64,000 bases of DNA from positions 22,848,626-22,912,625 of the forward strand of contig JAOANR010000015.1 in assembly GCA_030278955.1 (NCBI GenBank), in the 5' to 3' direction. The stretch comes from Hygrophila difformis (taxonomy: Eukaryota > Streptophyta > Magnoliopsida > Lamiales > Acanthaceae). The position numbers and the translations under genes are program-made. The notes under the pieces were generated by a model that had not been told where the DNA came from, did not search any database, and saw nothing but the letters and a program-made list of their open reading frames with translations. Below are positions 1-44,495 of the stretch, piece after piece; position 1 is the stretch's first letter, and the number at the start of each line of letters is the position of its first letter.

Positions 1-356
1 TAGTCCGAATTAATCTTTGTGATCTAAACAAAAGTTGTAGATAATCATGTCTAGTATGTGTCTGTAAATTTTCAGAATTTTTGGAGCTCATTTGGTATGT
101 TAAAAAGTCAAATCTATGACAGGTGTCAAACCTGAATCCTGACAGCATACTATTTGTGTAGAAAACTTGATTTTTGACATGCTTCCCATCTTTTTTCCCA
201 AAAACTTAAAACACGAAAGTTGTTCGTTGGGATGTTTTTGAGTTACTGTGAAAATTTCAGATCAATCGCCTAAGAAATGGATTTTTAAACCAAAAAGGCG
301 CAAACTGTGACACCGATCGGTTTTAAACTTGTGAAACTTGCGAAATGTGTTCTTAC

Positions 357-1745: not shown

Positions 1746-2354
1746 TATTGTTGAGATGGTGGCGTATCGGGGAGAATTTTTAAAAGCTCAAATTTTTATT
1801 TACTTACTTACGGCATTATTCATGTCTTTAAATCATGCCATTTATTTATTAGTGGATGATTAACTTAAATTGGGCATTACCTACAAGAAATGTTTTACAA
1901 ATTTTTAATTAAAGGCTTTGAAACCCCTAACCCATGCTATGTGTTAACTTACTCAGCGCGTTTTTGCTGACCCAAACCATTTATCCTCTTTTTCTTTCAG
2001 AGTTGAAGAATATGCATCATCATATGCATACTGGGAATTTTTGGGGATTACATTATATTTAAAATTTTGCGTTAGACTAGAATTTGCATGAACGGGCCTG
2101 TTTAACCCGTGTTTTGGCCATGTTGGCCCTATATTTAAATTCCGCTGCACTATATATGTAAATATTATTTTCCGCTGCAACTTTGATGTATTATTTTTAA
2201 ATTATATATGAATGGGCTGTTTGAATATTTTAAATTCTGAAAAACCATAGCCTTGCATCTCTTTAGTGAGCTCGGAGAAACCGTGTCTTGCTAGGGAGGT
2301 GTGGCGGTGGCATCCCGGCCTGGGTTACCAAAACCGGGGTGTTACATTAACAAG

Positions 2355-4677
2355 TGTCTTGGATGAATGGCTAGCAAAGCAAGGTGATCAATTATCTCTT
2401 GAACCCACCAAGATTAATAGCCTCCATAATAGGCAAACATTATGTTAATAGACAACATGATGGACAAAATTAATAGCCTCCCAAATTAATAGCCTCTTTG
2501 AAATGAGTGGATACAAATACTCTAACCATTATTGCTCAAGACACACTTAATTGGATGATTGGTGAGGTTGTAATCACTCTCACAATGTGTCATGTTCAAT
2601 TGTTCAAATCATAGCCTATAAATAGAGGGAGTTTCTAGCCTTCAAACACACCAATCTCATCCATCTCATTAGCCAAATTCACTACCCATTTTATTCTTCA
2701 AAGTTCTCCCACATAGTGAGCATATCTTAAGGATTGTGGAGTCTTGTAGGCTTGGCAACCTTCATCATTCTAAGAGTTCTAACTCTTCTCAACACTTGGT
2801 CAGTAAGATATCATCCTTGAAACTTGTATCTTAGAGATCTAAATCTTTTATTTTTATACTATAAATTGATTTCCCTCTATTTGTCGAATTTCAGCGAAAC
2901 CCGTAATTTGTGGTGCGAATCTTGTGTTATAACGGCCATTATCTTTAAATCTCCTTGCTCTTATACATCAATTCAGTAAGTTAACACTCTCTACTTCAAG
3001 TTTTGGAGATCCCAATCCATGTTTTAAGAGTACAAAATTAGAATTTCCCCATTATACCAAAATCTGTCAGTTTTTCGTTTACATAAAGATTCATCTTTTT
3101 AAACTATTTTGGCTCATTATCCCTCAAAGGTTTCTTCATAAAACTTGTTCCTTATTGAGTTGAGTATCTTTCTGGAAAATTTTATAATTTTTAGAACTCG
3201 TATGAAAAAGTTATGGGATCCGCTTTATCGAAAGGTCGAAATCTCTTTTTGTTGAAATCTAAGAAATGATAGTGTTTTCTGAAATCCACATTTTTGAAGG
3301 TCTTAAGTGTCTCAAAGCCAAATGGTTTCTTCATGAAAAATATTTATCTATGTGTTATCTACCTTGTGGTAAAATTTTAGAATTTTCAATCGCGAATTAC
3401 TATTTTTAAAACCTGTTGAAACTTATAGAGTCACTATTGAATTTCTGGCAGAATACATGTTCTGAAAAGAACTCAATTTTTGAAATGTTTCCATACCTTA
3501 TTTTGAAAAGTGTAAAACATGAAACTTGTTTAACTATGTGTTGAGTATCTACAGTTTAAATTTCAAAGCAATCGCCTTTCATATGAATTTTTAAACTGAC
3601 TTGGCGTAAACTGCGACATTGGACTTGATTTTTGGTCCAAATGAGAAATTGTTGGATTTTGAGATCCATGAAATGATATTTTCATATCTATGAGATATTG
3701 ATATGGGAGTTAAATGTTGAAATGATATTTGGCATTATTGAATGCCCTTGTTATGAGGTTACTCCCGTGAAATTGTTGAAAACTCTTTTAAAGAGGATAT
3801 TATGTGGAAAATTGTGTAAAACTCTTTTAAATCCATTGTGCACTATTAACTTGAGTAAGATGCCATACTTGATAGAGGGCTAATGCACTAGGGATGTGTC
3901 TTGCGGGGCCTCCCCCTCTAAATATGCCAAGACGGCATTATTGATAAATTGTGCCAAAACGGCGTTGTTGCATGTATGAGTCTATACTCTTGGGTGTATC
4001 CGTGATGGGTTACCCGAGGCTCCGGAGTGTGTCTGTATATGAGTCCGCTGCATGCTGATCATGACTTATGATCGATATGATATGATATGATATGATATAT
4101 GGAAAATGGTGTCCTCTTGTGCATAGTTGCTACAATGGTAAGAATGAAAGTTATTTATTTTGTTAAAGGTAATGTGTGATCATTTTAAAAGAAAAAGTGA
4201 AAATTATTATTATTATTTTTTGAGTGTCAACCACTATTTTAAAACCCACTTCTTGAAGTGGAGTGGGTTGACTTACTCAGTACCATTGTACTGATAAAAA
4301 GTTGTTGTGTTATCTTTTTACAGATATTGGAGCTGACATATGAACTGCATCTCATGACATGAGCATTTGGGGATGGGATTACCTTTCATCAAAAGATTGT
4401 TGCTTTAAGGAACCACGTACTTTAAATAATAATGTCATATATATTGCCTTTAGTTTATGCTTCCGCATGAGAAAGAACAATGACTCTGGTATTAAGTACT
4501 TTAAATTTTCTTATGTCTATATTTTATAAAATTGGCAATTATTTTTAAAGTTCATACTACAAAAATTTATATTTCGCCGTAGCACTTGTCAATTAATTTA
4601 GCCAAAGGGCGAGCCTGACTGACAAGTGTGGCGGTAACATTCTGAAACCTTATGAGGATAAATTTCGGGGTGTTACA
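2355..4677 (+). mobile_element. Tekay LTR, first of two tandem 5' LTRs
   Basis: Starts TGTCTTGGATG and ends CGGGGTGTTACA; 2323 bp. It aligns along its length with the LTR at 4679-19415 once the hAT insertion in the latter is removed, including the uninterrupted hAT target at 2707-2714. It has a TATA box (2617-2624), a ~195-bp repeated module (3141, 3335, 3531), a (GATAT)n run near 4075 and the terminal hairpin at 4277-4294. The next base is a single G and then the second LTR begins. No internal region or primer site separates the two. Confidence 0.85.
2617..2624 (+). promoter_or_regulatory. LTR TATA box
   Basis: TATAAATA in the context AGCC-TATAAATA-GAGGGAG. The same motif is kept in the tandem partner at 4959-4966. 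It is the best candidate for the U3 core promoter of this element. Confidence 0.6.
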
Positions 4678-5438: not shown

Positions 5439-5458
5439 TCAGTATAAAGATATACTGA
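5439..5458 (-). other. Conserved LTR terminal hairpin
   Basis: Stem TCAGTATA/TATACTGA, loop AAGA on the plus strand, next to GAGTAAGTTAA. One member of a hairpin class found 348-393 bp from the sense 3' end of all nine LTRs where it is visible. The other copies are at 1953-1970, 4277-4294, 14137-14156, 19014-19031, 26002-26016, 32491-32507, 36771-36787, 38769-38784 and 42208-42224. Confidence 0.75.
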
Positions 5459-5730
5459 GTAAGTTAATCCCTAACTAACAAATAAAAGGGGTTACATGTG
5501 TTTAAACTAAAGATTTCGCTTACCTTACGTAAAGTTAAAATACATAATTTATTTGCAGCGGAAAACATGATTGAAGGACATAATTTTAAAAGCGTAATTA
5601 AAAGCATAATTTAAGATGCATAATTTTAAATACATAATTTAAAAACATGATAATACGATTTAAGCATAATGGAACACTCACACAAGTCTTTTACATTTTA
5701 TCCCGTAGACTAAGAAGAGGACACCATACC

Positions 5731-5951: not shown

Positions 5952-7835
5952 AAGATAATGATAGCATGAAGATCGGCTCAGCCTAGTGAACGGGATTTTT
6001 CGAAAGTTCATATTTCAATGTTATCAAATGATCGATATCGCGTTTTCATAGTTCGAGTTTTCTCAAGTTCGAAAAATCCTATTCGAGGCAGTTTACGCCT
6101 TTCTTAATTAAAAATTCGTCTTTACACCAAAAATTCTGAAATTTTTACAGTAATTCAAAAACACACACCCGAACAACTTTCATATTTTAAGTTTGTGGAA
6201 ATAAGGTTCCGAAGTGAGTCGAAATTCGAGTTCATTGCAAAGAATAATTTCTATCTTAAAAACTGGTTCCGTCACAGTTTCGTGCAACGCCGATTAAAAA
6301 TTTATTTCAAAACCAATCAATGCGAAATTTTTACAGTAACTACAAAACACGATAAGGAACAACTTTCATGTTTTAAGGATTTGCAAATAATGAATTCTTG
6401 GTACTCAAAAATCGACCACAACTCACTGCATACTCGCGGCCTTCGAAACAGTTTTAAAGAAGTTCTGAAAATTCGACCGTTTGACATATCAAATGAACAC
6501 CAAAATCCGTGAAATTTTATATGCATAATCTAGACTCAATTATCTACAACGTTTGTTGAGGAATGAAAAGTTAAATCATTCGAAAAATGGGTGAAAAACA
6601 TGCATCAAGTTGAGTAAAGAAAACTGTCACAGTTTAAAAGTGTTCGGGTTGTCACAGAAAGTTTACGGCGTGATTTGGGATAGAAAAACTTAATGTCAAC
6701 AGCTGAAATTTGGACACAAGATAGATAAAGGTGTTAGGAACAACTTTTATGTTGAAAAGTTTTCGGTTTGAATTCCCGAATGTCGGGTTTTAGGCGTGTC
6801 TTTGAAATTGGACGAAAATAGGGTTTTTGAAAACCGATTTTCGTTACAAGCCTATATCTCGAGTTTTAAACAACAAACAACCACGAAAATTTGTGAGTAA
6901 GGTTTTAACTTACTTAGTTAGAGAATAGGGTCGCTGGATTGGGTTTCCGGACGTCCTAGGGTCACGACGAACGGCCAACTTCTCCGATCGCTTTTTGTTC
7001 GTTTTCCGACGGGAAATCGTAGTAAGGAAAAAGGGTTAGAATGTGAGTTTCTGAGATATATGGACGAATTAAAACTTTGTACAATAGCTTACCAAGAGTC
7101 TAGAGGGCAGGGCTTGGTTCCTTTCGCCTTGCCGTCGCCGGAATACTCGCCGGAAAGTGAGTTCGGAGAGGTTTTGACTTGGAGAGGAATATTGGAGGTG
7201 TTTAGGGTTAGGTTTTCTGAGAATTATGGGGAGGGGGCGCCCAAATCTGATCTTATGCCCTTCCCCATTGTTGTGATCGACTTGCCACCGATTGAGGTCG
7301 GATTTTTGGCAAGAAAATCGCCATAGAAGGAAAGTTTACACCTCCTGCACCTCTGGCGCGCTGGTGACGCGCACATAGGCCTTTGTCCGCGCGGAGCACG
7401 CGTGGACTGCCCTGGAGTCGCGACACCTCCGTTCGCGCGGTGGCCGCGTGGCGGCGCGCGGAGGGCGCGGGCCGGCCGGACCGGCCGGTGCGGCCGTCCG
7501 CGTGTTCTGTCGGGTCTTTCCTTGCTTTCCCCTATCGGTTTTCTACCCTCCACGTGTTAGCTCGATTCCTTGGGTCGTCTCCGGTTCGGAATCTTTACCT
7601 TCAACTTGTTACGAGCTCGGCTTATGCTCGTAACATTTCCGTGTCCTAATTAGTCTAGTCTAAATTGGTTCCAACTCCTCCTATCGTCCTTGTGATCTAT
7701 TTTGTGATTTATTTCGTGATTTATTTCGTGACTGAACTTAGAAATTAGTTCCAAGCTGCCTACGTACCCTGTGAAGGGATCAAGTCATGACGTAGTTCAA
7801 AACAATTTGAATTTGTTTTTCCGCGGGTGTTACAT

Positions 7836-12529: not shown

Positions 12530-12892
12530 CCTGTTACAACCAAGGAAGGTGCAAAGTTCAAGGAGATTCGATAAAGTGTGGGAAAGAGTGTTTTGCTGAA
12601 TTGAATGGTGCTTATCAGGAGTTGGTTAGTATTTGCATGTATTCCTTCAGTCGTTTAGGTTTTTTTTTTTTTTAAGGTTCGAGGTACTTGTCGATTTGTT
12701 ATGCAGAAATAGATGCGTTGTTTGTCTGTCGGCGCTTTGATAAGATATAAAGATGATGTATAAAATAAGTGTTTGTGACTTTATTGCCCAGTAGAAATTT
12801 TTGTTTCGGTACAAGCGACAAGTAGCAAGGATCCTGAAAATAGTTCGAGAAAATAGGGAAGAGAACAATAGGAATAATGTGTCGATAATCCC
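12530..12892 (-). other. Non-coding spacer between extra ORF and gag
   Basis: 363 bp with no supported ORF. It holds a T12-13 run (12661-12673) and AT-rich sequence. In sense direction it separates the upstream ORF from the gag start; no splice or IRES-like signal could be demonstrated. Confidence 0.5.
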
Positions 12893-13420
12893 CTAAGCCT
12901 GGGAAGGGTAGGTAGTCGAATCCTCCATGGGATCGTCCTCATCACTTGCGTCCTCGATGGTGCCCGTGCCAAGGGGCCCATGGAACACCGGGCTTGCTGG
13001 CCAAGCGGGTCCAGTGGTAGGAACAGGATCGATGGTGGCCACTGGAGTCGGTGCGGCTGTCGGGTTGGCGACAGGGTCAGCAACGGGGCTAGCTGCGGGA
13101 GGAGCTCCTGGGCCAAGGGGGGCGTGTGGAGGCAAGTCATCCTTCCAGTGAAGCAGTTGATATCCCAGGACCCCTGCTTCGGTCTCTATGTCGTCCAGTT
13201 GGGCCCGAAGCTCAGTCTCGTGGGCCTGGAGTTCGTTGATTTGGGTTTGGAGTTGGGTCAGGTCTTGGTGCCCCGCTCCCCCTAGGTTAACCAGGTGACC
13301 TAGGTTGGCCTCCATTTGTTCTACTCTTAGCCTGAAGTTGTTCACGTTTTGAGGGGTTCCGAGGTAGGCTTCGATCAACCTCATTAATAGGTTGATCACG
13401 TTTGCGTTCGAAGCAGCCAT
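12893..13420 (-). CDS. Extra ORF upstream of gag, coiled-coil protein
   Basis: An intact 175-residue ORF in sense orientation between the primer site and gag. The start MAASNANVINLLMRLIEAYL is followed by a heptad-like, Leu/Gln/Glu-rich stretch (about residues 30-85) likely to form a coiled coil. A Pro/Ala-rich linker (about 98-145) and an acidic tail (DASDEDDPMED) follow. It is uninterrupted although gag-pol next to it has several breaks. I do not recognise it as a known family. Extra ORFs upstream of gag are documented for Ogre-type elements, but I know of no standard one for Tekay. Confidence 0.6.
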   Translation of the reverse strand: MAASNANVINLLMRLIEAYLGTPQNVNNFRLRVEQMEANLGHLVNLGGAGHQDLTQLQTQINELQAHETELRAQLDDIETEAGVLGYQLLHWKDDLPPHAPLGPGAPPAASPVADPVANPTAAPTPVATIDPVPTTGPAWPASPVFHGPLGTGTIEDASDEDDPMEDSTTYPSQA

Positions 13421-13765: not shown

Positions 13766-16504
13766 TGTAACACCCCGGATTTGGTAACCCAGGCCGAGGT
13801 GTCACCGCCGCATCTCCCTAGCAAGACACGGATTCCCGAGCTCGCTAAGGAGGTGCAAGGCTTATGGGTATACAAAGTTTTGAAAACATTCAACAATGAA
13901 TCCGGAATTTATTAATACTTAAATCAAAGTACGATAGTAAAAATCATCATGCATGGATAAGGTAAATGCAGCGGAAAACTAATCATGGCCAACACGGCCA
14001 AAACCTCGGGTTTAACAGACCCGGTAAAACAGTAGTATGATGCAGTAAATAAAGATGTTCACAATTATATCCCCCCAAATGCGCGTGCATGCATCACTCG
14101 ACATACTCTGTAGAAAAAAGGAAATGACAACGGTTGTCAGTATAAAGATATACTGAGTAAGTTAATCCCTAACTAACAAATAAAAGGGGTTACATGTGTT
14201 TAAACTAAAGATTTCGCTTACCTTACGTAAAGTTAAAATACATAATTTATTTGCAGCGGAAAACATGATTGAAGGACATAATTTTAAAAGCGTAATTAAA
14301 AGCATAATTTAAGATGCATAATTTTAAATACATAATTTAAAAACATGATAATACGATTTAAGCATAATGGAACACTCACACAAGTCTTTTACATTTTATC
14401 CCGTAGACTAAGAAGAGGACACCATACCGGGAGATTACTAACGATGCAATCTCAACATAGGACCACTAACGAGGCAGTCCAAACAATGGGAGACCACTAA
14501 CGAGGCAGTCTCAAAAAGATAGTAGGACCACTAACGAGGCGATCCAAAAAGATAGTAGGACCACTAACGAGGCGATCCAAAATACAGCGCGCGAGATCAC
14601 TAACGAGGCAATCTCAGATAGTAAGGAGACCACTAACGAGGCAGTCTCAAAGATAATGATAGCATGAAGATCGGCTCAGCCTAGTGAACGGGATTTTTCG
14701 AAAAGTTCGTATTTCAATGTTATCAAATGATCGATATCGCATTTTCATAGTTCGAGTTTTCTCAAGTTCGAAAAATCCTATTCGAGGCAGTTTACGCCTT
14801 TCTTAATTAAAAATTCGTCTTTACACCAAAAATTCTGAAATTTTTACAGTAATTCAAAAACACACACACGAACAACTTTCATGTTTTAAGTTTGTGGAAA
14901 TAAGGTTCTGAAGTGAGTCGAAATTCGAGTTCATTGCAAAGAATAATTTCTGTCTTAAAAACTGGTTCCGTCATAGTTTCGTGCAACGCCGATTAAAAAT
15001 TTATTTCAAAACCGATCGATGTGAAATTTTTACAGTAACTACAAAACACGTTAAGGAACAACTTTCATGTTTTAAGGATTTGCAAATAATGAATTCTTGG
15101 TACTCAAAAATCGACCACAACTCACTGCATACTCGCGGCCTTCGAAACAGTTTTAAAGCAGTTCTGAAAATTCGACCGTTTGACATATCAAATGAACACC
15201 AAAATTCGTGAAATTTTATATGCATAATCTAGACTGAATTATCTACAACTTTTGTTGAGGAATGAAAAGTTAAATCATTCGAAAAATGGGTGAAAAACAT
15301 GCATCAAGTTGAGTAAAGAAAACTGTCACAGTTTAAAAGTGTTCGGGTTGTCACAGAACGTTTACGGCGTGATTTGGGATAGCAAAACTTAATGTCAACG
15401 GCTGAAATTTGGACACAAGATAGATAAAGGTGTTAGGAACAACTTTTATGTTGAAAAGTTTTCGGTTTGAATTCCCGAAGGTCGAGTTTTAGGCGTGTCT
15501 TTGAAATTGGACGAAAATAGGGTTTTTGAAAACCGATTTTCGTTACAAGCCTATATCTCGAGTTTTAAACAACAAACAACCACGAAAATTTGTGAGTAAG
15601 GTTTTAACTTAGTTAGAGAATAGGGTCACTGGATTGGGTTTCCGGACGTCCTAGGGTCACGACGAACGGCCAACTTCTCCGATCGCTTTTTGTTCGTTTT
15701 CCGACGGGAAATCGTAGTAAGGAAAAAGGGTTAGAATGTGAGTTTCTGAGATATATGGACGAATTTAAAACTTTGTACAATAGCTTACCAAGAGTCTAGA
15801 GGGCAGGGCTTGGTTCCTTTTGCCTTGCCGTCGCCGGAATACTCGCCGGAAAGTGAGTTCGGAGAGGTTTTGACTTGGAGAGGAATATTGGAGGTGTTTA
15901 GGGTTAGGTTTTCTGAGAATTATGGGGAGGGGTCGCCCAAATCTGATCTTATGCCCTTCCCCATTGTTGTGATCGACTTGCCACAGATTGAGGTCGGATT
16001 TTTGGCAAGAAAATCGCCATAGAAGGAAAGTTTACACCTCCTGCACCTCTGGCGCGCTGGTGACGCGCACATAGGCCTTTGTCCGCGCGGAGCACGCGTG
16101 GACTGCCCTGGAGTCGCGACACCTCCGTCCGCGCGGTGGCCGCGCGGCGGCGCGCGGAGGGCGCGGGCCGGCCGGACCGGCCGGTTCGGCGGTCCGCGTG
16201 TTCTGTCGGGTCTTTCCTTGCTTTCCCCTATCGATTCCTTGGGTCGTCTCCGGTTCGGAATCTTTACCTTCAACTTGTTACGAGCTCGGCTTATCGCTCG
16301 TAACATTTCCGTGTCCTAATTAGTCTAGTCTAAATTGGTTCCAACTCCTCCTATCGTCCTTGTGATCTATTTTGTGATTTATTTCGTGATTTATTTCGTG
16401 ACTGAACTTAGAAATTAGTTCCAAGTTGCCTACGTACCCTGTGAAGGGATCAAGTCATGACGTAGTTCAAAACAATTTGAATTTGTTTTTCCTCGGGTGT
16501 TACA
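13766..16504 (-). mobile_element. 5' LTR of the minus-strand Tekay element
   Basis: 2739 bp; the sense 3' end at 13766 is followed by the primer site. It carries the hairpin array at 14430-14651 and the terminal hairpin at 14137-14156. Differences from 5091-7834 include a 23-bp insertion or deletion near 14087 and a ~32-bp deletion near 16233, plus scattered substitutions, indicating an old insertion. Nothing in it supports host coding; the short frames in its GC-rich part (16040-16200) are fortuitous. Confidence 0.93.
14430..14651 (-). repeat. ACTAACGAGGC hairpin array (5' LTR copy)
   Basis: Same seven-unit array as in the sister LTR. Small changes (ACGATGC in the first unit; ACTAACG restored in the last) show independent drift while the arms stay paired. 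Confidence 0.85.
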
Positions 16505-17433: not shown

Positions 17434-19418
17434 CTCCCACATAGTGAGCATATCTTAAGGATTGTGGAGTCTTGTAGGCTTGGCAACCTTCATCATTCTA
17501 AGAGTTCTAACTCTTCTCAACACTTGGTTAGTAAGATATCCTCCTTGTAAATTTGTATCTTAGAGATCTAAATCTTTTATTTTTATACTATAAATTGATT
17601 TCCCTCTATTTGTCGAATTTCAGTGAAACCCGTATTTGTGGTGCGAATCTTGTGTTATAACGGCCATTATCTTTGAATCTTCTTGCTCTTATACATCAAT
17701 TCTGTAAGTTAACACTCTCTACTTCAAGTTTTGGAGATCCCAATCCATGTTTTAAGAGTACAAAATTAGAATTTCCCCCATTATACCAAAATCTGTCAGT
17801 TTTTCGTTTACATAAAGATCCATCTTTTTAAACTATTTTGGTTCATTATCCCTCAAAGGTTCCTTCATAAAACTTGTTCCTTATTGAGTTGAGTATCTTT
17901 CTGAAGAATTTTATAATTTTTAGAACTCGTATGAAAAAGTTATGGGATCCGCTTTATCGAAAGGTCGAAATCTCTTTTTGTTGAAATCTAAGAAATGATA
18001 GTGTTTTCTGAAATCGACAATTTTGAAGGTCTTAAGTGTCTCAAAGCCAAATGGTTTTTTCATGAAAAATATTTATGTATGTTTTATCTACCCTGTGGTA
18101 AAATTTTAGAATTTTAGGTCGCGAATTACTATTTTTAAAACCTGTTGAAAATTATAGAGTCACTATTGAATTTCTGGCAGAATACATGTTCTGAAAAGAA
18201 CTCAATTTTTGAAATGTTTCCATACCTTATTTTGAAAAGTGTAAAATATGAAACTTGTTCAACTATGTGTTGAGTATCTACAGTTTAAATTTCATAGCAA
18301 TCGCCTTTCATATGATTTTTTAAACTGACTTGGCGTAAACTGCGATGTTGGACTTGATTTTTGGTCCAAATGAGAAATTGTTGGATTTTGAGATCCATGA
18401 AATGATATTTTTATATTTATGAGATATTGATATGGGAGTTAAATGTTGAAATGATATTTGGCATTATTGAATGCCCTTGTGATGAGGTTACTCCCTTGAG
18501 ATTGTTGAAAACTTTTTTAAAGAGGATATTATGTGGAAAATTGTGGAAAATTCTTTTAAATCCATTGTGCACTATTAACTTGAGTAAGATGCCATACTTG
18601 ATAGAGGGCTAATGCACTAGGGATGTGTCTTGCGGGGCCTCACCCTCTAAATATGCCAAGACGGCATTGTTGATAAATTGTGCCAAAACGGCGTTGTTGC
18701 ATGTATGAGTCTATACTCTTGGATGTATCTGTGATGGGTTACCTAAGGCTCCGGAGTGTGTCTGTATATGAGTCCGTTGCATGCTGATCATGACTTATGA
18801 TCGATATGATATGATATAATATGATATATGGAAAATGGTGTCCTCTTGTGCATAGTTGCTACAATGGTAAGAATGAAAGTTATTTATTTTGTTAAAAGTA
18901 ATGTGTGTGATCATTTTAAAAGAAAAAGTGAAAATTATTATTATTATTATTATTATTTGAGTGTCAACCACTATTTTAAAACCCACTTCTTAAAGTGGAG
19001 CAGGTTGACTTACTCAGTACCATTGTACTGATAAAAAGTTGTTTCGTTATTTTTTTACAGATATTGGAGTTGACATATGAACTGCATCTCATGACATGAG
19101 CATTTGGGGATGGGATTACCTTTCATCAAAAGATTGTTGCTTTAAGGAACCACATACTTTTAAATATTAATGTCCTATATATTGCCTTTAGTTTATGCTT
19201 CCGCGTGAGAAAGAACAATGACTCTGGTATTAAGTACTTTAAATATTCTTTTGTCTATATTTTATAAAATTGGCAATTATTTTTAAAGTTCATACTACAA
19301 AAATTTATATTTAGCCGTAGCACTTGTCAATTAAGTTAGCCAAAGGGCGAGCCTGACTGAGAAGTGTGGCGGTAACATTCTGAAACCTTATGAGGATGAA
19401 TTTCGGGGTGTTACAGAG

Positions 19419-23949: not shown

Positions 23950-25608
23950 GGCAACGCAGATGGTTAGAGTTGATCAAGGATTATGATTTGGACATCGCCT
24001 ACCATGAAGGGAAAGCTAACGTGGTCGCAGATGCGTTGAGCCGCAAGACTCGACGCGTGGCAAATACTCTTATCTTACCTTCGGAACTGTATATGGACTT
24101 GGTCAAGGTAGACACGGAGCTAGTCAATTATGGAACTGTGGAAAATGTCATTAATGCTATGACCATTGAATCCACGGTATTTGATGAAATACGCAGTGCT
24201 CAACCAGGCGACATAAAGCTTGAAAGGATCAAGAAGAAGGTTGCTGAAGGAAAAGCAATTGGTTGTGCAACCCATGAGGATGGAAGCATTCGCTTCAAAG
24301 GGAGATGGTGCGTACTGCATAAATGCGTAGAGCTAAAACGAAGATTAATGAAAGAAGGCCACAACACCCCATATTCAGTACATCCAGGGGGTGATAAACT
24401 TTATAAGGATTTAAAGAAGGTTTATTGGTGGCCAAGGATGAAGAATGAGGTTGTTGAGTTTGTGGCTAGATGTTTAACCTGTCAAAAGGTTAAAGCAGTA
24501 CGTCAGAAGCCCTTAGGACTCATGAAACCATTGGAAATCCCAAGTTGGAAATGGGATAGTATATCAATAGATTTTGTTTCAGGACTACCACGATCACCAA
24601 AAGGAATGAATAAAATTTGGGTAATTGTTGATAGATTGACAAAGATTGCGATCTTCATACCAATGAAGGATACATGGTCCATAGATCAATTAGCAAGAGC
24701 ATATATCAATAACGTGGTTCGACGACATGGAGTTCCACATGATATAATCTCTGATAGAGACAGCAGATTTGTCTCTCATTTCTTGACCAAGCTGCAAGAA
24801 GCTCTTGGTACCCAAATTAAAATGAGCACCGCTTTTCACCCGATGGCGGATGGACAAACGGAAAGGACAATCCAAACACTGGAGGACATGCTGAGAGCAT
24901 GCATTCTTGAATTTAAAGGAAGCTGGGAAAACCATCTACCTTTGATAGAGTTCTCTTACAATAACAGCTATCATGCTAGTATAGGCTTGACACCGTTTGA
25001 GGCACTCTATGGACGCAAGTGCCGAAGCCCATTATGTTAGGAAAAATATGAGAATTCTATTGTGGTTGGGCCGCAACTCATTGAAGACATGGCCCAACAG
25101 ATCAAGATGATCCAAGGGAAAATGAAGGCAGCACAAGATCGACAGAAAAGTTATGCCGATGTTAGGCGATAAGACCTAGAATTTCAAGTTGGAGATAGGG
25201 TTATGCTGAAAATATCACCTATGACAGGAGTGATGCGTTTTGGAAAGCGAGAAAAGTTAAGTCCTCGATATATTGGACCGTATGACATTCTGGAACGAGT
25301 CAGAACCCTGGCATATAGACTAGCCCTACCGCCACAACTATCTCGAGTGCACAATGTGTTCCATGTTTCACAGTTAAAGAAATATGTGTATGACCTAACC
25401 CATGTACTTCAACAGGAAGTAATTGAACTCAAAGAAGATCTAACTTATGAAGAATATCCAATCCAAATACTCGACATCAAAAGAGGAACGACAAGGGACA
25501 AGACCACCCGGATTGTTAAAGTACTTTGGTCCAATCATAGTACGGAAGAAGCAACATGGAAACTAGAGGATGATATGAAGCAACGCTACCCCAATCTCTT
25601 TTTAAATG
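23942..25608 (+). pseudogene. Plus-strand Tekay integrase and chromodomain
   Basis: After the frameshift the frame reads [19 protein letters not shown], then an integrase zinc finger (HPGGDKLY...CLTCQK) and D-D-E core ([27 protein letters not shown]). A TAG after CRSPLC (25038-25040) and a TAA in RR*DLEF (25169-25171) break it. The C-terminal chromodomain-like segment (VKVLWSNH...EATWKLEDDM) reaches the end of the conserved region. The last codons are replaced by the inserted LTR at 25609, so the polypurine tract and 3' LTR are not adjacent. Confidence 0.92.
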
Positions 25609-26879
25609 TGTAACACCCCGGTTTTTGGTAACCCAGGTCGGGATGTCACCGCCACATCTCCCTAGTAAGACACGGTTTCTCCGAGCTTACTAAAGAGATG
25701 CAAGGCTAGGTATTGCAGTGTTCAAAATATTTAAAGCATTCAAAATAGCCCATACAATATAAATCGAAAATAACAATAGCATAGCGCAGCGGAAATATTT
25801 AGTTTAGTACAGTATCGCAGCGGAAAATATAAAAAGGGCCGACATGGCCAAAACACGGGTTAAACAGGCCCGTTCATAATATAGTCTAAGTATGAAATAT
25901 AAAAGCAAAATAAAAATCCCCAAAATCCCATGCATGATTCGTGCTCATACAGGCTCATTCCACATATTCTGTAAGGAAAGGAATAAAAAAAATGGTTTTG
26001 ATCAGCAAAATTGCTGAGTAAGTTAACACATGCGTGATCGTAGGGTTTAAAAGCCATAAATTTAATAATTTAACAAAAGCATGATAATAACATAATATTT
26101 AATTTCATATAATCCATATCATATAGCACCATCTATCTCAGGCTCTATTTAATAACACATATCACATGGTTCAAGATAATAGCCATAATTTAAATATAAA
26201 GCATTTAAATAATTTAATTTGACAACAATATCATTTAATCTAGTTTAATTTAATTTAGAATCCCCATTACATTCCCGATTTGGTATTTCAAAGTTTCACG
26301 ATAAAAATCGCGATGACAACAAGTTTAGCCGGTAGCCCGGCGGCCGCAGCCGTATCAGCCATACCCAGTACCACTCCGGAGCCTCGGGAAACCCATACGG
26401 ATATTCACGAGAGTGTAGGCTCTAAGTTTCGCCGTTTTGGCAATATCACATTTCAAGTATAGCGCGCGGGGTCACCATCGTCCATTACGGCACGAAGTGA
26501 ATCGTTAGGGGGCACCCTGCAGAGCACTCACCCCTAATTTTAATTTATCAAGTTTGTAAGGGGATTTAGTTTTTAAAATCTGCCTTCCAATGTATTAATT
26601 TAGAAACAATATCTCAATTCGTTTCAACCCTAAAGGTTAATTCCATGTTTCAACAAGATTTCAAAATTTCGTTTCGGTAAATCACAGTTTACTCCAAAAT
26701 TCGTCTAAAATCAGATTTAATTCCAAAAATTCCAAAATTTCATATCTGACTCGGAAACATCAAGATCTACAACTTTCGTGTTTTAACTTTTTCAATCCGA
26801 GATACCTAAGTAGGTCAAAAACGCTAATTTTTGCATAACAAGAAATCTGTCCGAGTTTACAGGTCACAGTTTAAAGATT
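25609..26879 (-). mobile_element. Partial minus-sense LTR inserted in Tekay pol
   Basis: Starts TGTAACACCCCGG on the plus strand (sense 3' end) directly after pol residues RYPNLFLN. The preceding AAATG (25604-25608) would be the TSD. It contains the terminal hairpin (26002-26016, TCAGCA/TGCTGA), a GC patch with GCCGG/CCCGGC (26320-26350) and the start of the ~190-bp module (CTACAACTTTCGTG near 26770). It runs into the N gap, so its length and owner are unknown. Confidence 0.85.
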
Positions 26880-27379
26880 NNNNNNNNNNNNNNNNNNNNN
26901 NNNNNNNNNNNNNNNNNNNNNNNNNNNNNNNNNNNNNNNNNNNNNNNNNNNNNNNNNNNNNNNNNNNNNNNNNNNNNNNNNNNNNNNNNNNNNNNNNNNN
27001 NNNNNNNNNNNNNNNNNNNNNNNNNNNNNNNNNNNNNNNNNNNNNNNNNNNNNNNNNNNNNNNNNNNNNNNNNNNNNNNNNNNNNNNNNNNNNNNNNNNN
27101 NNNNNNNNNNNNNNNNNNNNNNNNNNNNNNNNNNNNNNNNNNNNNNNNNNNNNNNNNNNNNNNNNNNNNNNNNNNNNNNNNNNNNNNNNNNNNNNNNNNN
27201 NNNNNNNNNNNNNNNNNNNNNNNNNNNNNNNNNNNNNNNNNNNNNNNNNNNNNNNNNNNNNNNNNNNNNNNNNNNNNNNNNNNNNNNNNNNNNNNNNNNN
27301 NNNNNNNNNNNNNNNNNNNNNNNNNNNNNNNNNNNNNNNNNNNNNNNNNNNNNNNNNNNNNNNNNNNNNNNNNNNNNNN
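26880..27379. other. Assembly gap, exactly 500 N
   Basis: A run of N with round length, so probably a placeholder and not a measured distance. The left flank is a Tekay-type LTR and the right flank is Athila-like leader sequence, so the join between the two halves of the window is unproven. Confidence 0.99.
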
Positions 27380-32110: not shown

Positions 32111-32750
32111 TGTAACACCCCGGTTTTTGGTCACCCAGGTCGGGATGTCACCGCCACACCTCCCTAGCAAGACACGGTTTCTCCGAGCTTGCTAAGGAGA
32201 TGCAAGGCTATGGTTTTTCAGAATTTAAAACATTCAAACAGCCCATTTGTATATACTTTAAAAACTTATACATCAAAGTTGCAGCGGAAAATAATATTTA
32301 CATAAGAACAATGCAGCGGAATGTAAATATAGCCAACACGGCCAGAATACGGGTTAAACAGGCCCGTTCATACAATTTCTAGTCTAATACAAAAATTCAA
32401 AATAATATATATCCCAAACTTCCCGTGTATGCATATGACGATGCATAATTCTCAACTCTGAAAGAAAAAGGAAAAGAAAATATGGTTTGGTCAGCACTAC
32501 GTGCTGAGTAAGTTAACACATACAAGATTATGAGGTTTCAAAGCCTTTGTTTAAATTTAATGAAAACATGTGCATAATTTAAATAATTCATGTAACCGCA
32601 TAATTTAGAAGACAGGGATTCATAAGATCATCAATATAGCTTGCAACGTAATTAAATAAGTTGCCATAAATTTAAAAACACAATTTAATACGGATTTTAG
32701 TTTGGAATTCTCATGAACTTCTCGTTTCATATCTTTTAGAGATCACCACC

Positions 32751-32926
32751 GCTAGGGCTCTTATGTCCGCCAGCCTTACGCCTGGGCTCTTATGTCCACA
32801 GGTATCATGGTCAATACAGATCTTTTAATTAGAGTTAATCCGTCTGCTAGCCATACGATCACTGTTTCGCTAGGGCTCTTACGTCAACCTAGACATACAC
32901 TTGGGCTCTTATGTCCCAAGCCGCAG
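32751..32926 (-). repeat. GCTCTTATGTC hairpin array in LTR A
   Basis: Four copies of the centre GCTCTTATGTC (one GCTCTTACGTC) inside inverted arms: GCTAGG/CC-GCC-AGC (weak), CCTGGG/CC-A-CAGG, CTAGG/CCTAG, CTTGGG/CCCAAG. Copies in LTR B (37031-37206) and LTR C (42468-42643) are almost identical. Confidence 0.8.
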
Positions 32927-34210
32927 AGAACATTGACAGTATCTAGCTTAGTCATAACCCACAATATATTTTAATCTTCTCGTTTCGTGTATCGTATGTC
33001 AAGTATTTCTATCCGTTTCAACCTCAAAGGCTAATTCCACCGTTTCAACAAGATTTCAAGTTTTGATTTGGTCAACCACAGTTTACTCTAAAATTCGTTA
33101 AAAATCAGATTTAATTTCAAAAATTCCGAAATTTCACTACTGACTCCAAAACGTCGAGATCTACAACTTTCATGTTTTAACTTTTTCGATCCGAGATACC
33201 GAAATAGGTCAAAAACACTAATTTTCACAGAAGTACTGTTCTGTCCGAATTTCATATAACTCAGTTTAAAGATTTCGAATTACACCATAGCAATTCAACT
33301 CCAAATTTAATGAAATTTTACAGAGATCATCTTAAGACAATTATCTACAACTTTCATGTTCGGCTAAAGATCTAATTCGGCCTAGAACCATAGTCAAAAA
33401 CGTCAACAAGTTCGCCCCTATGTTCTGTCCAGTTTCAAGATTCGATTTAAAACCAGTTCGGTTCGTAGTGGATTTCATATATCAAATCATCATGAAAAAT
33501 TCTGAAATTTCATGGAGGTGTTCTTAACATATAGATCTACAACTCCTATGTTCAACGCCAAGCCTAGATCGGTCTAGATCTAAGGTAGAAATCACCAACA
33601 AGTTCGAATAAGGAATCTATCATCGTTTCAAGATCTAAATCTAATGCAGGCTCGTTTACGATCAGTTTCGGATATCAAAACACGATGAAAAATTATGAAA
33701 TTTTTACAGGAGCTAGATCAGTGTCTTAGGAATGTTTTTCGTGTTTTAAGTTTTCTCGTTTGAACGCTTTAAGGGGTTCGAATAAATTCAACAATAACGC
33801 TGCGCCGGTGTAGACAGATTTTAGATAGGGTTCCATTACATTTATATGTTCGAATCTTTTAACCACCCAAAACCAAAGTAAGCGTTAACTTACAGATTGT
33901 TGAGCGTCCGGGATCGTCGATTCGGAGGCGTGGCTTCCCGTCCTCCGTTTATCCTCTCCGTTTGTCGGGTTCTTCGCTCTCGATTCGGATCGGGGGTTTA
34001 GAATAGAAAAAGATCGAATTTAGGATTCGTTTTCGAATCACATATGAAAAAGAATGGATCAAGGCTTACCACAGCGACGGGGGTCTCCGAATTTCGTCCA
34101 AGTTAGTTCCTCCTCTCGGTGTTGTGCCTCCGACGGCTCCGGGATTAGGGTTTCGACGTATAGAAAGATTTCGTAGGGTTTCAAATGTATTCGGAGCTCT
34201 TAGGAGGTTT

Positions 34211-34220
34211 TATTTATAGA
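34211..34220 (-). promoter_or_regulatory. TATA box of LTR A
   Basis: TCTATAAATA on the minus strand. Equivalents lie at 41047-41056 (LTR B) and 43928-43937 (LTR C), in every case about 570 bp from the sense LTR start. Confidence 0.6.
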
Positions 34221-36390: not shown

Positions 36391-38937
36391 TGTAACACCC
36401 CGGTTTTTGGTCACCCAGGTCGGGATGTCACCGCCACACCTCCCTAGCAAGACACGGTTTCTCCGAGCTTGCTAAGGAGATGCAAGGCTATGGTTTTTCA
36501 GAATTTAAAACATTCAAACAGCCCATTTGTATATACTTTAAAAACTTATACATCAAAGTTGCAGCGGAAAATAATATTTACATAAGAACAATGCAGCGGA
36601 ATGTAAATATAGCCAACACGGCCAGAATACGGGTTAAACAGGCCCGTTCATACAATTTCTAGTCTAATACAAAAATTCAAAATAATATATATCCCAAACT
36701 TCCCGTGTATGCATATGACGATGCATAATTCTCAACTCTGAAAGAAAAAGGAAAAGAAAATATGGTTTGGTCAGCACTACGTGCTGAGTAAGTTAACACA
36801 TACAAGATTATGAGGTTTCAAAGCCTTTGTTTAAATTTAATGAAAACATGTGCATAATTTAAATAATTCATGTAACCGCATAATTTAGAAGACAGGGATT
36901 CATAAGATCATCAATATAGCTTGCAACGTAATTAAATAAGTTGCCATAAATTTAAAAACACAATTTAATACGGATTTTAGTTTGGAATTCTCATGAACTT
37001 CTCGTTTCATATCTTTTAGAGATCACCACCGCTAGGGCTCTTATGTCCGCCAGCCTTACGCCTGGGCTCTTATGTCCACAGGTATCATGGTCAATACAGA
37101 TCTTTTAATTAGAGTTAATCCGTCTGCTAGCCATACGATCACTGTTTCGCTAGGGCTCTTACGTCAACCTAGACATACACTTGGGCTCTTATGTCCCAAG
37201 CCGCAGAGAACATTGACAGTATCTAGCTTAGTCATAACCCACAATATATTTTAATCTTCTCGTTTCGTGTATCGTATGTCAAGTATTTCTATCCGTTTCA
37301 ACCTCAAAGGCTAATTCCACCGTTTCAACAAGATTTCAAGTTTTGATTTGGTCAACCACAGTTTACTCTAAAATTCGTTAAAAATCAGATTTAATTTCAA
37401 AAATTCCGAAATTTCACTACTGACTCCAAAACGTCGAGATCTACAACTTTCATGTTTTAACTTTTTCGATCCGAGATACCGAAATAGGTCAAAAACACTA
37501 ATTTTCACAGAAGTACTGTTCTGTCCGAATTTCATATAACTCAGTTTAACGATTTCGAATTACACCATAGCAATTCAACTCCAAATTTAATGAAATTTTA
37601 CAGAGATCATCTTAAGACAATTATCTACAACTTTCATGTTCGGCTAAAGATCTAATTCGGCCTAGAACCATAGTCAAAAACGTCAACAAGTTCGCCCCTA
37701 TGTTCTGTCCAGTTTCAAGATTCGATTTAAAACCAGTTCGGTTCGTAGTGGATTTCATATATCAAATCATCATGAAAAATTCTGAAATTTCATGGAGGTG
37801 TTCTTAACATATAGATCTACAACTCCTATGTTCAACGCCAAGCCTAGATCGGTCTAGATCTAAGGTAGAAATCACCAACAAGTTCGAATAAGGAATCTAT
37901 CATCGTTTCAAGATCTAAATCTAACGCAGGCTCGTTTACGATCAGTTTCGGATATCAAAACACGATGAAAAATTATGAAATTTTTACAGGAGCTAGATCA
38001 GTGTCTTAGGAATGTTTTTCGTGTTTTAAGTTTTCTCGTTTGAACGCTTTAAGGGGTTCGAATAAATTCAACAAAAACGCTGCGCCGGTGTAGACAGATT
38101 TTAGATAGGGTTCCATTACATTTATATGTTCGAATCTTTTAACCACCCAAAACCAAAGTAAGCGTTAACTTACAGATTGTTGAGCGTCCGGGATCGTCGA
38201 TTCGGAGGCGTGGCTTCCCGTCCTCCGTTTATCCTCTCCGTTTGTCGGGTTCTTCGCTCTCGATTCGGATCGGGGGTTTAGAATAGAAAAAGATCGAATT
38301 TAGGATTCGTTTTCGAATCACATATGAAAAAGAATGGATCAAGGCTTACCACAGCGACGGGGGTCTCCGAATTTCGTCCAAGTTAGTTCCTCCTGTAACA
38401 CCCCGGATTTGGTCACCCAGGCCGGGACGCTACCGCCACACCCTTCCAAACAAGACCCGATTAAATCGAGCTTATTTAAAAGGATGCTAAGGCTTAAGTT
38501 GCATCATTGACTTAAAAATATTTAAAAACCATTCAAATAAGCCCGAAGTTTAATCAGAGTATAACACACATAATAATAATAAGCAGTGCGGAAGCAAAAA
38601 TAAACAGGGCCAAAACATGCGGCCAAAACCAGAGTCTAAGTCCAATGCATAAATTAAAATAAATAAAATGCAACAAGTCTTCTTTTTTTCAAAAAAAATG
38701 GAAATCCCATCCCTCCATGCGATGCTTACTCTGCGAAATCTGAAAGGAAAAATAAAACAACAATTTATCAGTACAAAGGTACTGCGTAAGTTAATATATA
38801 GCACAACGAGTTTTAAAAGTTTTTAGGAGAATATACAAAGTAATATATTTATTTAAAAGACGAGTAAATAAATTAATTAAAAATTCTTACACATATGCCA
38901 CGAACATTTTACCAATGTTAGTTATGATCGAGGACAC

Positions 38938-39062: not shown

Positions 39063-40346
39063 AAGTGCATGCAGCGGACCCTATACAGATACACTCCGGA
39101 GCCCTAGATAACCCATACGGATACATCTAGGAGTATAGACTCGTACATCACAATAATCAATGCCGTTTTGGCTATAAAAGAGGGGCGACATAATTCACCA
39201 CATTGGCATCCCACTCGATCAAAACTTACAAAGTTTAAAAAACCACATTTAATCACTTCATAATATTTCCACATTTCCAGAATCCATATTCTTCAAAAAT
39301 GAGTAACACTCGACTCATAGTTCATCGAATAATCAAAATAGCATTTACCGATTAAAAATGCCATTATAACAGTTTCTGAAATCGCCTTTAAAAATGCAGT
39401 AAACGATTTTTAAAAATTCTGGAAAAATTACAGTAGCTAGAAAACATCAAAATAAGCATTTTTCATAGAAATAGCCATCTCAAAATTCGGACTCTAAACT
39501 AGTCATTTTAATCTATTTCAGAAAGCTATTGAAATTCAATTTCTCTTGCTTCAGTAAATTCGACCACAGTGAGTTCAAAAATTCATAACAATTTCATACA
39601 TGCTCCAAAAATCATGAAATTTTACAGGGATGTTCTAGACACATATTAGAACAAGTTTCATGAAGACATCAAGCACTAAAAACGATCATAGGCAAGAGTA
39701 AATCGAACAACAAAACTGACTACATACATACATACATTAAATCTGTCAACCTATGTGCAGAAAATACCAGATCGAATTTGGGTGACCAAAACATGTCCAA
39801 AAATTACAAAATTTTACAGAGAGCCTCTTTAGGACATTGGGAACAAGTTTCATTTTGGACGTTTCTCCTAAAAATGTACGGATCATGGTCGAATTCACAG
39901 AACAATAAAATTGGTCATAGGAAAACCCTATTTGGCAGATTTTGTCAAATGAAAAGATAAACCTATATCTCGAGTTATACTCAACCAAAACTCCTAAAAA
40001 TCGACGTGCACAATACTAACTTACTTGAGATGAGTTTAGAACCGAATATCCCCTTGGTGGAATCCTGGAAATCGTCCAACTCGACCCCAACAATCAACAC
40101 TTCTACCGAATGCACCTATTATGGAGTTGTCGGAGGAAATTCTCAATTCTAGGACAAGGGATTCGAATCTAAGACCAAGGAAATGAAGTAGAACTCTTAC
40201 CTACACGTAGGAGAAAGGTTTGGACCACTTGAACACGTCCAACTCTCTGCCAAGGATGATGAACAACTCACAAAACTCTCACTACTCTCTCTTGAACTCA
40301 AATTTCGGATGGGATGCAAATGAGTGCAATGGAGGCTGAGTAGGGG

Positions 40347-40356
40347 CTATTTATAG
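40347..40356 (-). promoter_or_regulatory. TATA box of the solo LTR
   Basis: CTATAAATAG on the minus strand, about 590 bp from the sense LTR start. Confidence 0.55.
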
Positions 40357-41827: not shown

Positions 41828-44495
41828 CGTAACACCCCGGTTTTTGGTCACCCAGGTCGGGATGTCACCGCCACACCTCCCTAGCAAGACACGGTTTCTC
41901 CGAGCTTGCTAAGGAGATGCAAGGCTATGGTTTTTCAGAATTTAAAACATTCAAACAGCCCATTTGTATATACTTTAAAAACTTATACATCAAAGTTGCA
42001 GCGGAAAATAATATTTACATAAGAACAATGCAGCGGAATGTAAATATAGCCAACACGGCCAGAATACGGGTTAAACAGGCCCGTTCATACAATTTCTAGT
42101 CTAATACAAAAATTCAAAATAATATATATCCCAAACTTCCCGTGTATGCATATGACGATGCATAATTCTCAACTCCGAAAGAAAAAGGAAAAGAAAATAT
42201 GGTTTGGTCAGCACTACGTGCTGAGTAAGTTAACACATACAAGATTATGAGGTTTCAAAGCCTTTGTTTAAATTTAATGAAAACATGTGCATAATTTAAA
42301 TAATTCATGTAACCGCATAATTTAGAAGACAGGGATTCATAAGATCATCAATATAGCTTGCAACGTAATTAAATAAGTTGCCATAAATTTAAAAACACAA
42401 TTTAATACGGATTTTAGTTTGGAATTCTCATGAACTTCTCGTTTCATATCTTTTAGAGATCACCACCGCTAGGGCTCTTATGTTCGCCAGCCTTACGCCT
42501 GGGCTCTTATGTCCACAGGTATCATGGTCAATACAGATCTTTTAATTAGAGTTAATCCGTCTGCTAGCCATACGATCACTGTTTCGCTAGGGCTCTTACG
42601 TCAACCTAGACATACACTTGGGCTCTTATGTCCCAAGCCGCAGAGAACATTGACAGTATCTAGCTTAGTCATAACCCACAATATATTTTAATCTTCTCGT
42701 TTCGTGTATCGTATGTCAAGTATTTCTATCCGTTTCAACCTCAAAGGCTAATTCCACCGTTTCAACAAGATTTCAAGTTTTGATTTGGTCAACCACAGTT
42801 TACTCTAAAATTCGTTAAAAATCAGATTAAATTTCAAAAATTCCGAAATTTCACTACTGACTCCAAAACGTCGAGATCTACAACTTTCATGTTTTAACTT
42901 TTTCGATCCGAGATACCGAAATAGGTCAAAAACACTAATTTTCACAGAAGTACTGTTCTGTCCGAATTTCATATAACTCAGTTTAAAGATTTCGAATTAC
43001 ACCATAGCAATTCAACTCCAAATTTAATGAAATTTTACAGAGATCATCTTAAGACAATTATCTACAACTTTCATGTTCGGCTAAAGATCTAATTCGGCCT
43101 AGAACCATAGTCAAAAACGTCAACAAGTTCGCCCCTATGTTCTGTCCAGTTTCAAGATTCGATTTAAAACCAGTTCGGTTCGTAGTGGATTTCATATATC
43201 AAATCATCATGAAAAATTCTGAAATTTCATGGAGGTGTTCTTAACATATAGATCTACAACTCCTATGTTCAACGCCAAGCCTAGATCGGTCTAGATCTAA
43301 GGTAGAAATCACCAACAAGTTCGAATAAGGAATCTATCATCGTTTCAAGATCTAAATCTAACGCAGGCTCGTTTACGATCAGTTTCGGATAACAAAACAC
43401 GATGAAAAATTATGAAATTTTTACAGGAGCTAGATCAGTGTCTTAGGAATGTTTTTCGTGTTTTAAGTTTTCTCGTTTGAACGCTTTAAGGGGTTCGAAT
43501 AAATTCAACAAAAACGCTGCGCCGGTGTAGACAGATTTTAGATAGGGTTCCATTACATTTATATGTTCGAATCTTTTAACCACCCAAAACCAAAGTAAGC
43601 GTTAACTTACAGATTGTTGAGCGTCCGGGATCGTCGATTCGGAGGCGTGGCTTCCCGTCCTCCGTTTATCCTCTCCGTTTGTCGGGTTCTTCGCTCTCGA
43701 TTCGGATCGGGGGTTTAGAATAGAAAAAGATTGAATTTAGGATTCGTTTTCGAATCACATATGAAAAAGAATGGATCAAGGCTTACCACAGCGACGGGGG
43801 TCTCCGAATTTCGTCCAAGTTAGTTCCTCCTCTCGGTGTTGTGCCTCCGACGGCTCCGGGATTAGGGTTTCGACGTATAGAAAGATTTCGTAGGGTTTCA
43901 AATGTATTCGGAGCTCTTAGGAGGTCTTATTTATAGATATTTAAGACCTAGGGCGTCCAAAATCTGATCCCAAGGGTCTTGGGTCGAGAGACGTTCAACC
44001 GAAAGTCGAAAAATCCGCGTTCGTGCGAGAGATTCACGCAACGGGCGAATCTGTCAAGTGGCGCGGTCGTGGCGCGGTCTTCCCTCTTCACCGCGCGGCC
44101 ACCGCGCGACTCTCGCCTGGACTTCGGTCCGGGCGGGTCGTGCGATCCGTCGTGCTTTTCCGCCTCTCTTTCGGGTTTCTATCCCTCTATGCTCCCGAAT
44201 TCCGATTCCCGGGGTATATTCGGGCTCCGATTTCCTATCCTAATTTTATTCGGACCTAAATTTATGTTTGGACTCGAGTTATTGAGTCCATCGATGTCGG
44301 GTCCCCGTGTAACCATTTATTCAATTAAATTGCCTTCGGCTTCCCGGGTTCTCGGAATTTTGTTTCCTTTTTTAATTTAAATTCCATTTCTCATCTTCTA
44401 TGATTCTTTATTCATTTATCATGTTTATTATATTTATTTATTTATTTATTTATTTATTGTATTTATTTTATGTTGGAAAATTCTCGGGTATTACA
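41828..44495 (-). mobile_element. LTR C (sense 5' LTR) of gag-only element
   Basis: 2668 bp, the outer LTR bordered by the right-hand TSD GTCTG. Same internal landmarks as LTR A: terminal hairpin 42208-42224, hairpin array 42468-42643, TATA box 43928-43937. A GC-rich frame at 43979-44380 is shared by all three LTRs but has no recognisable domain. Confidence 0.88.

Follow-up and report, generated by a model that had tools for sequence, protein, structure and literature searches.

A conserved hairpin in Tekay/Del-like long terminal repeats of Hygrophila difformis lies within candidate 3' splice-site signals and next to a complement of an upstream donor-like sequence

The window analyzed here, a stretch of 64,000 nucleotides (nt) from Hygrophila difformis (contig JAOANR010000015.1, positions 22,848,626 to 22,912,625), contains retroelements whose long terminal repeats (LTRs) share a short hairpin near the 3' end. 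We named the LTR families, after the hairpins that an earlier note on this DNA had listed, A (5439, 14137), B (26002), C (32491, 36771, 42208), D (38769), E (4277, 19014) and F (1953). A Pfam search of the window (10 of 35 listed open reading frames, ORFs) gave the domains RVT_1, RNase H, H2C2 and rve in this order along the minus strand of element A, which is the Ty3/gypsy order, and the same succession of reverse transcriptase, RNase H and integrase on the plus strand in element E. Element A has a weak Chromo match (E-value 5.7e-4; 20.2 bits, below the curated cut-off of 25.1), and the Pfam search reported no chromodomain in element E. All ten LTR 3' ends read GGGGTGTTAC followed by A (G in C3), and the LTRs of A, C and D, with both ends complete, measure ∼2.55-2.75 kb. 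Del/Tekay elements have a U5 att site of type A, with GGG at -8 to -10, and LTRs of 1143-4831 bp (PMC4029996; papers are cited by PubMed Central (PMC) number, here and below for the portions of their text that were available). Both the ends and the lengths found in the window agree with this description, and the elements appear to be Tekay/Del-like chromoviruses of the Ty3/gypsy group. A scan of viral contigs for the integrase and reverse transcriptase returned no relative.

The earlier note had described ten hairpins with coupled changes in their arms at a fixed distance from the LTR 3' end, and had taken them for a functional RNA element. All ten are present where it placed them. Measured from the last base of the hairpin, the distance to the LTR 3' end is 376 nt in F, 383 in E1, 384 in E2, 348 in A3, 371 in A5, 393 in B, 380 in C1-C3 and 374 in D, in agreement with the note save for D, where it gave 375 by counting the stem one pair shorter. 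Since C1-C3 are 98.6-99.9% alike in a self-comparison of the window, the ten copies amount to six distinct sequences and not to ten independent ones. Across these six, 95.1% of 41 alignment cells are paired, and slid-structure controls pair at most 46.3%. Two of the seven stem pairs change on both sides: position 5 is C-G in three sequences and U-A in three, and position 7 is C-G in three and U-A in one, with one unpaired and one gap. Of 500 shuffles, 5 gave a covariation score as high as the observed 0.276, and 47 gave as many pairs changed on both sides.

Some observations count against this evidence for the hairpin. The number of further pair types does not exceed that of shuffles (467/500), three of the seven stem pairs are invariant and thus uninformative, and the closing pair of the D hairpin is a G/A mismatch. 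Moreover, B, C and F can be aligned with each other over ∼450-490 nt around the hairpin (74-86% in the self-comparison), so that the change at position 5 may be a single event. A lone hairpin would mean little, since stems of at least 6 bp start at 4.6% of 13,740 LTR positions; stems of 6-8 bp at the same place in six families, with two compensations, mean more than that. Folded alone, six representatives all form the hairpin as described (z -2.35 to -5.07), and within folds of the 1.6-1.8 kb leader C1, C3 and D probably form the stem, and A3 most of it. A covariance model scores 44.2-51.7 bits at the ten sites, which are the same ten from which it was built, and at most 14.2 bits elsewhere in the window. 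Position, coupled arm changes and the covariance model thus support a functional RNA element. Its occurrence in all LTR families holds for the chromovirus-type LTRs recognized in the window, other elements being covered by the model scan only. Rfam gave no family at gathering score within the window, and the hairpin pattern had no match in viral contigs.

What surrounds the hairpin follows a constant order in the sense direction: a GTTAACTTAC-type flank, the hairpin TCAG...CTGA (GCAG in D), C or T, a pyrimidine tract and C/TAG. CTGAY is a plant branch-point consensus, and in U2-type introns the branch point lies ∼18-40 nt before the acceptor AG. In eight of the ten copies such an AG is present, and the A of CTGA precedes it by 28-33 nt (30 in F, 29 in E1, E2 and A5, 33 in B, C1 and C2, 28 in D), which is within the U2-type range. 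The pyrimidine fraction of the 18 nt preceding AG is 0.72-1.0 in these eight copies (C2 as C1), and from AG to the LTR end there are 342-360 nt. In five of six families the stretch from CTGA to the acceptor is free of other AG, family E having one near the branch point; because the hairpin itself contains an AG and none follows before the acceptor in these five families, CTGA is favored as the branch point. Scanning both strands for CTGAY followed after 26-35 nt by a pyrimidine tract and YAG, with thresholds chosen after the sites were seen, gave nine matches in the window against 2.5 expected under a first-order Markov model (maximum 6 in 40 runs). Eight are the hairpins with AG, all in sense orientation; the ninth, at 56601 on the plus strand, is the sole other composite match and has no hairpin-model match. 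The C1 and E1 LTRs gave no BLAST match to each other at an E-value of 0.01 on the sense strand, though all signals are common to both.

A donor-like sequence, D2 (GTAAGTTA[AG][ACT]), lies ∼1.3-1.5 kb upstream of the hairpin within the same LTR, and is present in seven of the eight copies that span its position. B reaches an N gap before the D2 position, and the donor of F would lie outside the window, because window positions 1-261 match positions 1395-1654 of the C LTR, downstream of D2 in C. The implied introns measure 1436 nt in C1, 1348 in E1, 1285 in D and ∼1.5 kb in A3, the last with an assumed end. TATA boxes stand upstream of D2 in C1, C3, D and E1, a stretch that C2 and E2 do not contain. 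With D2 in seven of eight spanning copies and AG in eight of ten, the hairpin's immediate surroundings look like a 3' splice site, for which the same LTR has a matching donor further upstream that the earlier note did not mention, and we consider the splice signals probably real. A second donor-like site, D1, precedes D2 by 173-179 nt in all seven copies with D2. It could possibly serve as an alternative donor, or bound a short first intron in the families with C/TAG in between (A, D, E). Such a D1-D2 intron was rejected as a general feature: C/TAG occurs between the two in A3, D, E1 and E2 and in none of C1-C3, and for this reason D1 is kept as a donor-like site with no role assigned.

Immediately before the hairpin, on its 5' side, the flank reads as the reverse complement of D2. 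Counting G-U, all 10 positions can pair in C1, E1 and D, and 9 of the 10 in A3. Sequences within one mismatch of GTAAGTTAAC occur 16 times in the window against 3.9 expected, and every one of them is either a D2 or the complement of a flank. When 16-nt windows (2288-2626 in each case) were ranked by the energy of their duplex with the flank, D2 came first in C1, E1 and D, as the second locus in A3 and as the third in E2. The flank GTTAACTTAC resembles the 5' end of U1 RNA. In the paired form, the helix ends, next to the hairpin, with the first G of the donor, and the hairpin's own last base is the proposed branch A. Unconstrained folding of A3 and D pairs D2 with the flank at a probability of ∼1. 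In the minimum-energy fold of C1 (33878-33893, minus strand) the donor is paired locally, GTAAGT with GCTTAC, which may be an alternative way of masking it. A3 also has GTAAG...CTTAC, yet in the A3 fold the partner of the donor is the flank.

Table 1. Features of the hairpin-bearing LTRs in the window (positions are those of the window)
Copy	Feature	Position	Strand	Remark
F	hairpin	1953..1970	+	proposed branch-point A 1970; acceptor AG 1999-2000
E1	TATA box TATAAATA	2617..2624	+	
E1	D1 GTAAGA	2803..2808	+	
E1	D2 GTAAGTTAAC	2976..2985	+	proposed 5' splice site
E1	flank GTTGACTTAC	4267..4276	+	
E1	hairpin	4277..4294	+	proposed branch-point A 4294
E1	acceptor AG	4322..4323	+	after pyrimidine tract; proposed intron 2976-4323, 1348 nt
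A3	hairpin	5439..5458	-	proposed branch-point A 5439, last base of 3' arm
A3	flank ATTAACTTAC	5459..5468	-	9/10 pairs with D2 at 6904-6913
A3	D2 GTAAGTTAAA	6904..6913	-	copy without acceptor AG
A3	D1 GTAAGC	7087..7092	-	179 nt upstream of A3 D2
A5	hairpin	14137..14156	-	acceptor AG 14108-14109; copy without D2
E2	D2	17704..17713	+	
E2	hairpin	19014..19031	+	acceptor AG 19059-19060
B	hairpin	26002..26017	-	acceptor AG 25969-25970; upstream part enters N gap 26880-27379
	N gap	26880-27379		500 N, after B LTR start
C1	acceptor AG	32458..32459	-	proposed intron 32458-33893, 1436 nt
C1	hairpin	32491..32507	-	proposed branch-point A 32491
C1	flank GTTAACTTAC	32508..32517	-	
C1	D2 GTAAGTTAAC	33884..33893	-	
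C1	TATA box	34211..34218	-	
C2	hairpin	36771..36787	-	acceptor AG 36738-36739
C2	D2	38164-38173	-	
D	hairpin	38768..38785	-	proposed branch-point A 38768; acceptor AG 38740-38741; closing pair G/A
D	flank ATTAACTTAC	38786..38795	-	
D	D2 GTAAGTTAGT	40015..40024	-	
D	TATA box	40348..40355	-	
C3	hairpin	42208..42224	-	without acceptor AG
C3	D2	43601-43610	-	
C, D, E (other copies)	D1	17531-17536, 34064-34069, 38344-38349, 40195-40200, 43781-43786		

The distribution of ATG triplets bears on where the leader would be scanned. With the transcription start site taken as the TATA box plus 30 (and assumed at 640 in A3), the leader up to D2 has one ATG in C1 and none in A3, E1 or D, against a summed expectation of 17.3. 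None of 2000 shuffles came down to the observed count, and the five other orderings of A, T and G occur 12-19 times each in the same leaders. The proposed introns of C1, E1, D and A3 have 29, 42, 41 and 24 ATGs, the expected numbers being 29.4, 27.8, 26.6 and 26.2; in A3 the first 292 nt past D2 are still free of ATG. Because the depletion is found before D2 and not in the introns, D2 is a likely boundary of the scanned leader.

According to our reading, which the arrangement of these signals favors without settling it, the R-U5 leader of these LTRs holds a U2-type intron whose two splice sites can be masked by the hairpin (branch point) and the flank (donor), probably so that some genomic RNA is kept unspliced. 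Transcription would start in the LTR ∼300 nt before D2, and the intron, ∼1.3-1.5 kb long, would reach from D2 to the C/TAG ∼350 nt before the LTR end. The branch-point sequence CTGAY would consist of the 3' arm of the hairpin and the next base, and the stem would end in the branch A. Removal of the intron by the spliceosome would shorten the leader by ∼1.3-1.5 kb and relieve it of 24-44 ATGs. With the flank paired to the donor and the hairpin closed, both reactive sites would be masked at neighboring helix ends, and a donor and branch point structured in this way would most likely hold splicing to part of the transcripts. What the sequences show directly is the signals with their order, spacing and orientation, their conservation across families, and the capacity to pair; from this we infer that the intron is spliced, with repression by hairpin and flank, and that mRNA is thereby separated from genomic RNA. 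A new LTR can keep the intron only if the RNA copied into it by reverse transcription was unspliced, and the intron region is kept in all eight LTR copies that span it. More tentatively, and at odds that we put clearly below even, the LTR intron may be self-locking, the flank acting as an internal mimic of U1 on the element's own donor and the hairpin masking the branch point, with both reactive sites at one helix junction. If so, the lock would determine how much spliced leader mRNA is made relative to unspliced genome, and the intron would mark genomic RNA.

Several results speak against this intron and its lock, and they concern the signals, the leader and the pairing. First, A3 and C3 have no acceptor AG, A5 has no D2, and D2 is without G at position -1 in every family; donors are known from four families in one window, and no TATA box was recognized upstream of D1 in family A. 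Secondly, the U5 part of the LTR is not depleted of ATG (7, 10, 8 and 5 in C1, E1, D and A3, with 7.1, 7.1, 6.9 and 5.4 expected), so that spliced RNA would still meet several ATGs before gag. A simple scanned spliced leader was dropped for that reason, and the U5 ATGs are the main weakness of the intron reading, unless D2 also uses acceptors nearer gag, for which there are loose candidates in A and E. Plant introns have a higher U content than the exons on either side (PMC3735527). In C1, E1 and D the U fraction is 0.18, 0.33 and 0.32 before D1, 0.33, 0.37 and 0.39 in the intron, and 0.34, 0.35 and 0.39 in U5, about as in the intron, and thus the intron does not exceed both exons in U content. 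Finally, the long helix is backed by folding in just two of four families, the probability of the D2-flank pairing being 0 in C1/C3 and 0.05-0.08 in E1/E2, and the hairpin itself reaches a probability of just 0.23-0.49 in the leader folds of E1/E2. Own donor-flank pairs are not clearly better than swapped ones: by pair count 4, 2 and 1 of 24 permutations reach the real value for windows of 10, 12 and 14, and by energy 2 of 24 do, counts that include the real arrangement. Covariation of donor and flank is hence not established.

Of the rival explanations, the one that survives best accepts the intron and reverses the part of the hairpin, which would aid splicing by looping out the stretch between a branch point in the flank (TTAAC/CTTAC) and the acceptor, much as the downstream stems of yeast do. 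TTAAC and CTTAC do suit the loose branch-point consensus yUnAy, and the likeness of flank and donor complement would then reflect a branch-point sequence. However, CTGAY at 28-33 nt from AG is the better fit, a branch point in the flank leaves TCAG, and in C also GTAG, ahead of the acceptor, and the 9-10-nt match to the complement of the donor goes unexplained. We regard this alternative as unlikely.

We think it rather improbable that the hairpin is instead an RNA element for poly(A) addition, dimerization or packaging, the roles proposed in the earlier note, with splice-like signals that are there by chance or for another use. The compensated pairs of the hairpin would suit such an element, and an element confined to the intron could mark unspliced RNA for packaging. 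A place near a poly(A) site is conceivable. AATAAA or ATTAAA occurs 45-95 nt upstream of the hairpin in eight of ten copies and five of six families, which allows a role other than splicing and thereby also tells against our reading; these hexamers are common in AT-rich DNA, and the counts have no shuffle control. On the other side, the spacing varies (45 nt in F, 49 in B, 54 in C, 68 in D, 95 in A), E1 and E2 have no such hexamer near the hairpin, the nearest being AATGAA at 134-142 nt upstream, and in eight of ten copies the hairpin is followed by ordered 3' splice-site signals. Dimerization through a kissing loop is unlikely and was dropped, because the loops (UCUU, CAUU, AUUU, CUUU, GUA, CGUUUU) are not palindromic; packaging may be a further role of the unspliced leader. 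With the hexamers in use, R would stop right ahead of the flank and leave the acceptor in U5, so that the acceptor is present in just the 5' copy of the RNA and splicing is confined to that copy. A poly(A) site upstream of the hairpin would thus suit both the placement given in the earlier note and the intron reading.

Two further alternatives fare worse. Proteins might bind the inverted GTAAGTTAAC pair and the palindrome of the hairpin as DNA elements of the LTR promoter. This would agree with a motif present in both orientations within the LTR and with hairpins that are near-palindromes, but it explains neither the pyrimidine tract and AG at fixed sense spacing nor the end of ATG depletion past D2, and we consider it very improbable. 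Hardly credible is a flank that serves as donor for antisense transcripts with incidental sense signals, since the other strand does read as a strong donor (CTGA|GTAAGTTAAC) but has no consistent antisense acceptor, the complement of D2 ending in C/TAG in some copies only, and the sense 3' splice-site signals would be left unexplained.

The elements show other peculiarities. In F a tandem array at 357-1481, with units of ∼108 bp that are ∼94-96% alike, lies inside the region equivalent to the proposed intron. The pol end of element E (25600-25610) directly abuts the minus-sense B LTR (TGTAACACCC at 25609), and its own 3' LTR and polypurine tract were not seen there. D (38395-40944) has the appearance of a solo LTR that went into the C2 LTR and left a 5-bp target duplication, CCTCC. 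In the stretch from the primer site to gag, element A (12781-13420, minus strand) has ATG-initiated ORFs, one of 175 amino acids (12893-13420) and an overlapping one of 119 amino acids in another frame.

Plant LTR elements are generally intronless, with Ogre and EVADE named as exceptions in a recent review (PMC12786077), and splicing between or within coding regions, or for env, is known from Ogre, BARE1, EVADE, Bagy2 and CRR (PMC12786077, PMC6317226, PMC3735527). In triticale, most GAG RNAs examined by nanopore sequencing had a single intron, and 14 of 15 of these belonged to Copia (PMC7765848). A similar study in sunflower reported spliced Copia elements, and, in the text available, no Tekay member among the expressed elements, with more than 15,000 Tekay copies in its survey (PMC7730604), an example of the very high numbers that Tekay/Del elements reach in some plants. 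Among the matches listed in the open-licence PMC literature, the available text described no intron with both splice sites inside an LTR and none in Tekay/Del LTRs; there was likewise no account of how Tekay/Del elements divide their transcripts between protein and genome. The word stem "splic" does not occur in papers on Del att sites (PMC4029996), the chromovirus LORE1 (PMC2832683) and LTR structure (PMC3601003). Retroelement introns as such are already known, and what would be new here is one inside an LTR with splice sites that can be paired. If our reading is true, the intron would account for part of the long leader and suggest how the elements choose between protein-coding RNA and an intact genome copy, and spliced LTR transcripts could be annotated as host non-coding RNA. 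Should the self-lock hold as well, one of the most abundant lineages of plant retroelements would have it as a general property; the evidence comes from six families in one window.

The proposed arrangement shares features with several known systems. In human immunodeficiency virus type 1 and mouse mammary tumor virus, splice donors in the R-U5 leader are under structural control, and genomic RNA must likewise be kept unspliced; retroviral acceptors lie outside the LTR, whereas here donor and acceptor would both be inside it. CRR, the centromeric Ty3/gypsy element of rice, is a chromovirus. Its transcripts are spliced too, but that splicing is described as removing rt and creating two ORFs (PMC3735527). 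Ogre, a Ty3/gypsy element of the Tat lineage, has an intron that is spliced from part of the transcripts (PMC6317226), but it lies between the gag-pro and pol ORFs and not in the LTR, and the available text describes no pairing of donor and branch point. In BARE1 and EVADE, splicing for a Gag-only RNA separates translated from genomic RNA (PMC3735527, PMC12786077), although these are Ty1/copia elements and not chromoviruses, and their introns are in the coding region. As to structure at splice sites, tomato HsfA2 is a plant case that has been studied (PMC8824230). The nearest structural analogues that we found are the zipper and downstream stems of yeast. An alternative structure in RPL7B represses splicing (PMC12350175, PMC12311795), and zipper stems, as in RPS17B and RPL7B, are defined by the 42-85 nt that connect stem, donor and branch point (PMC12350175), whereas the helix considered here would take in the donor hexamer and adjoin the hairpin with no linker, and is thus not a zipper stem of the yeast type.
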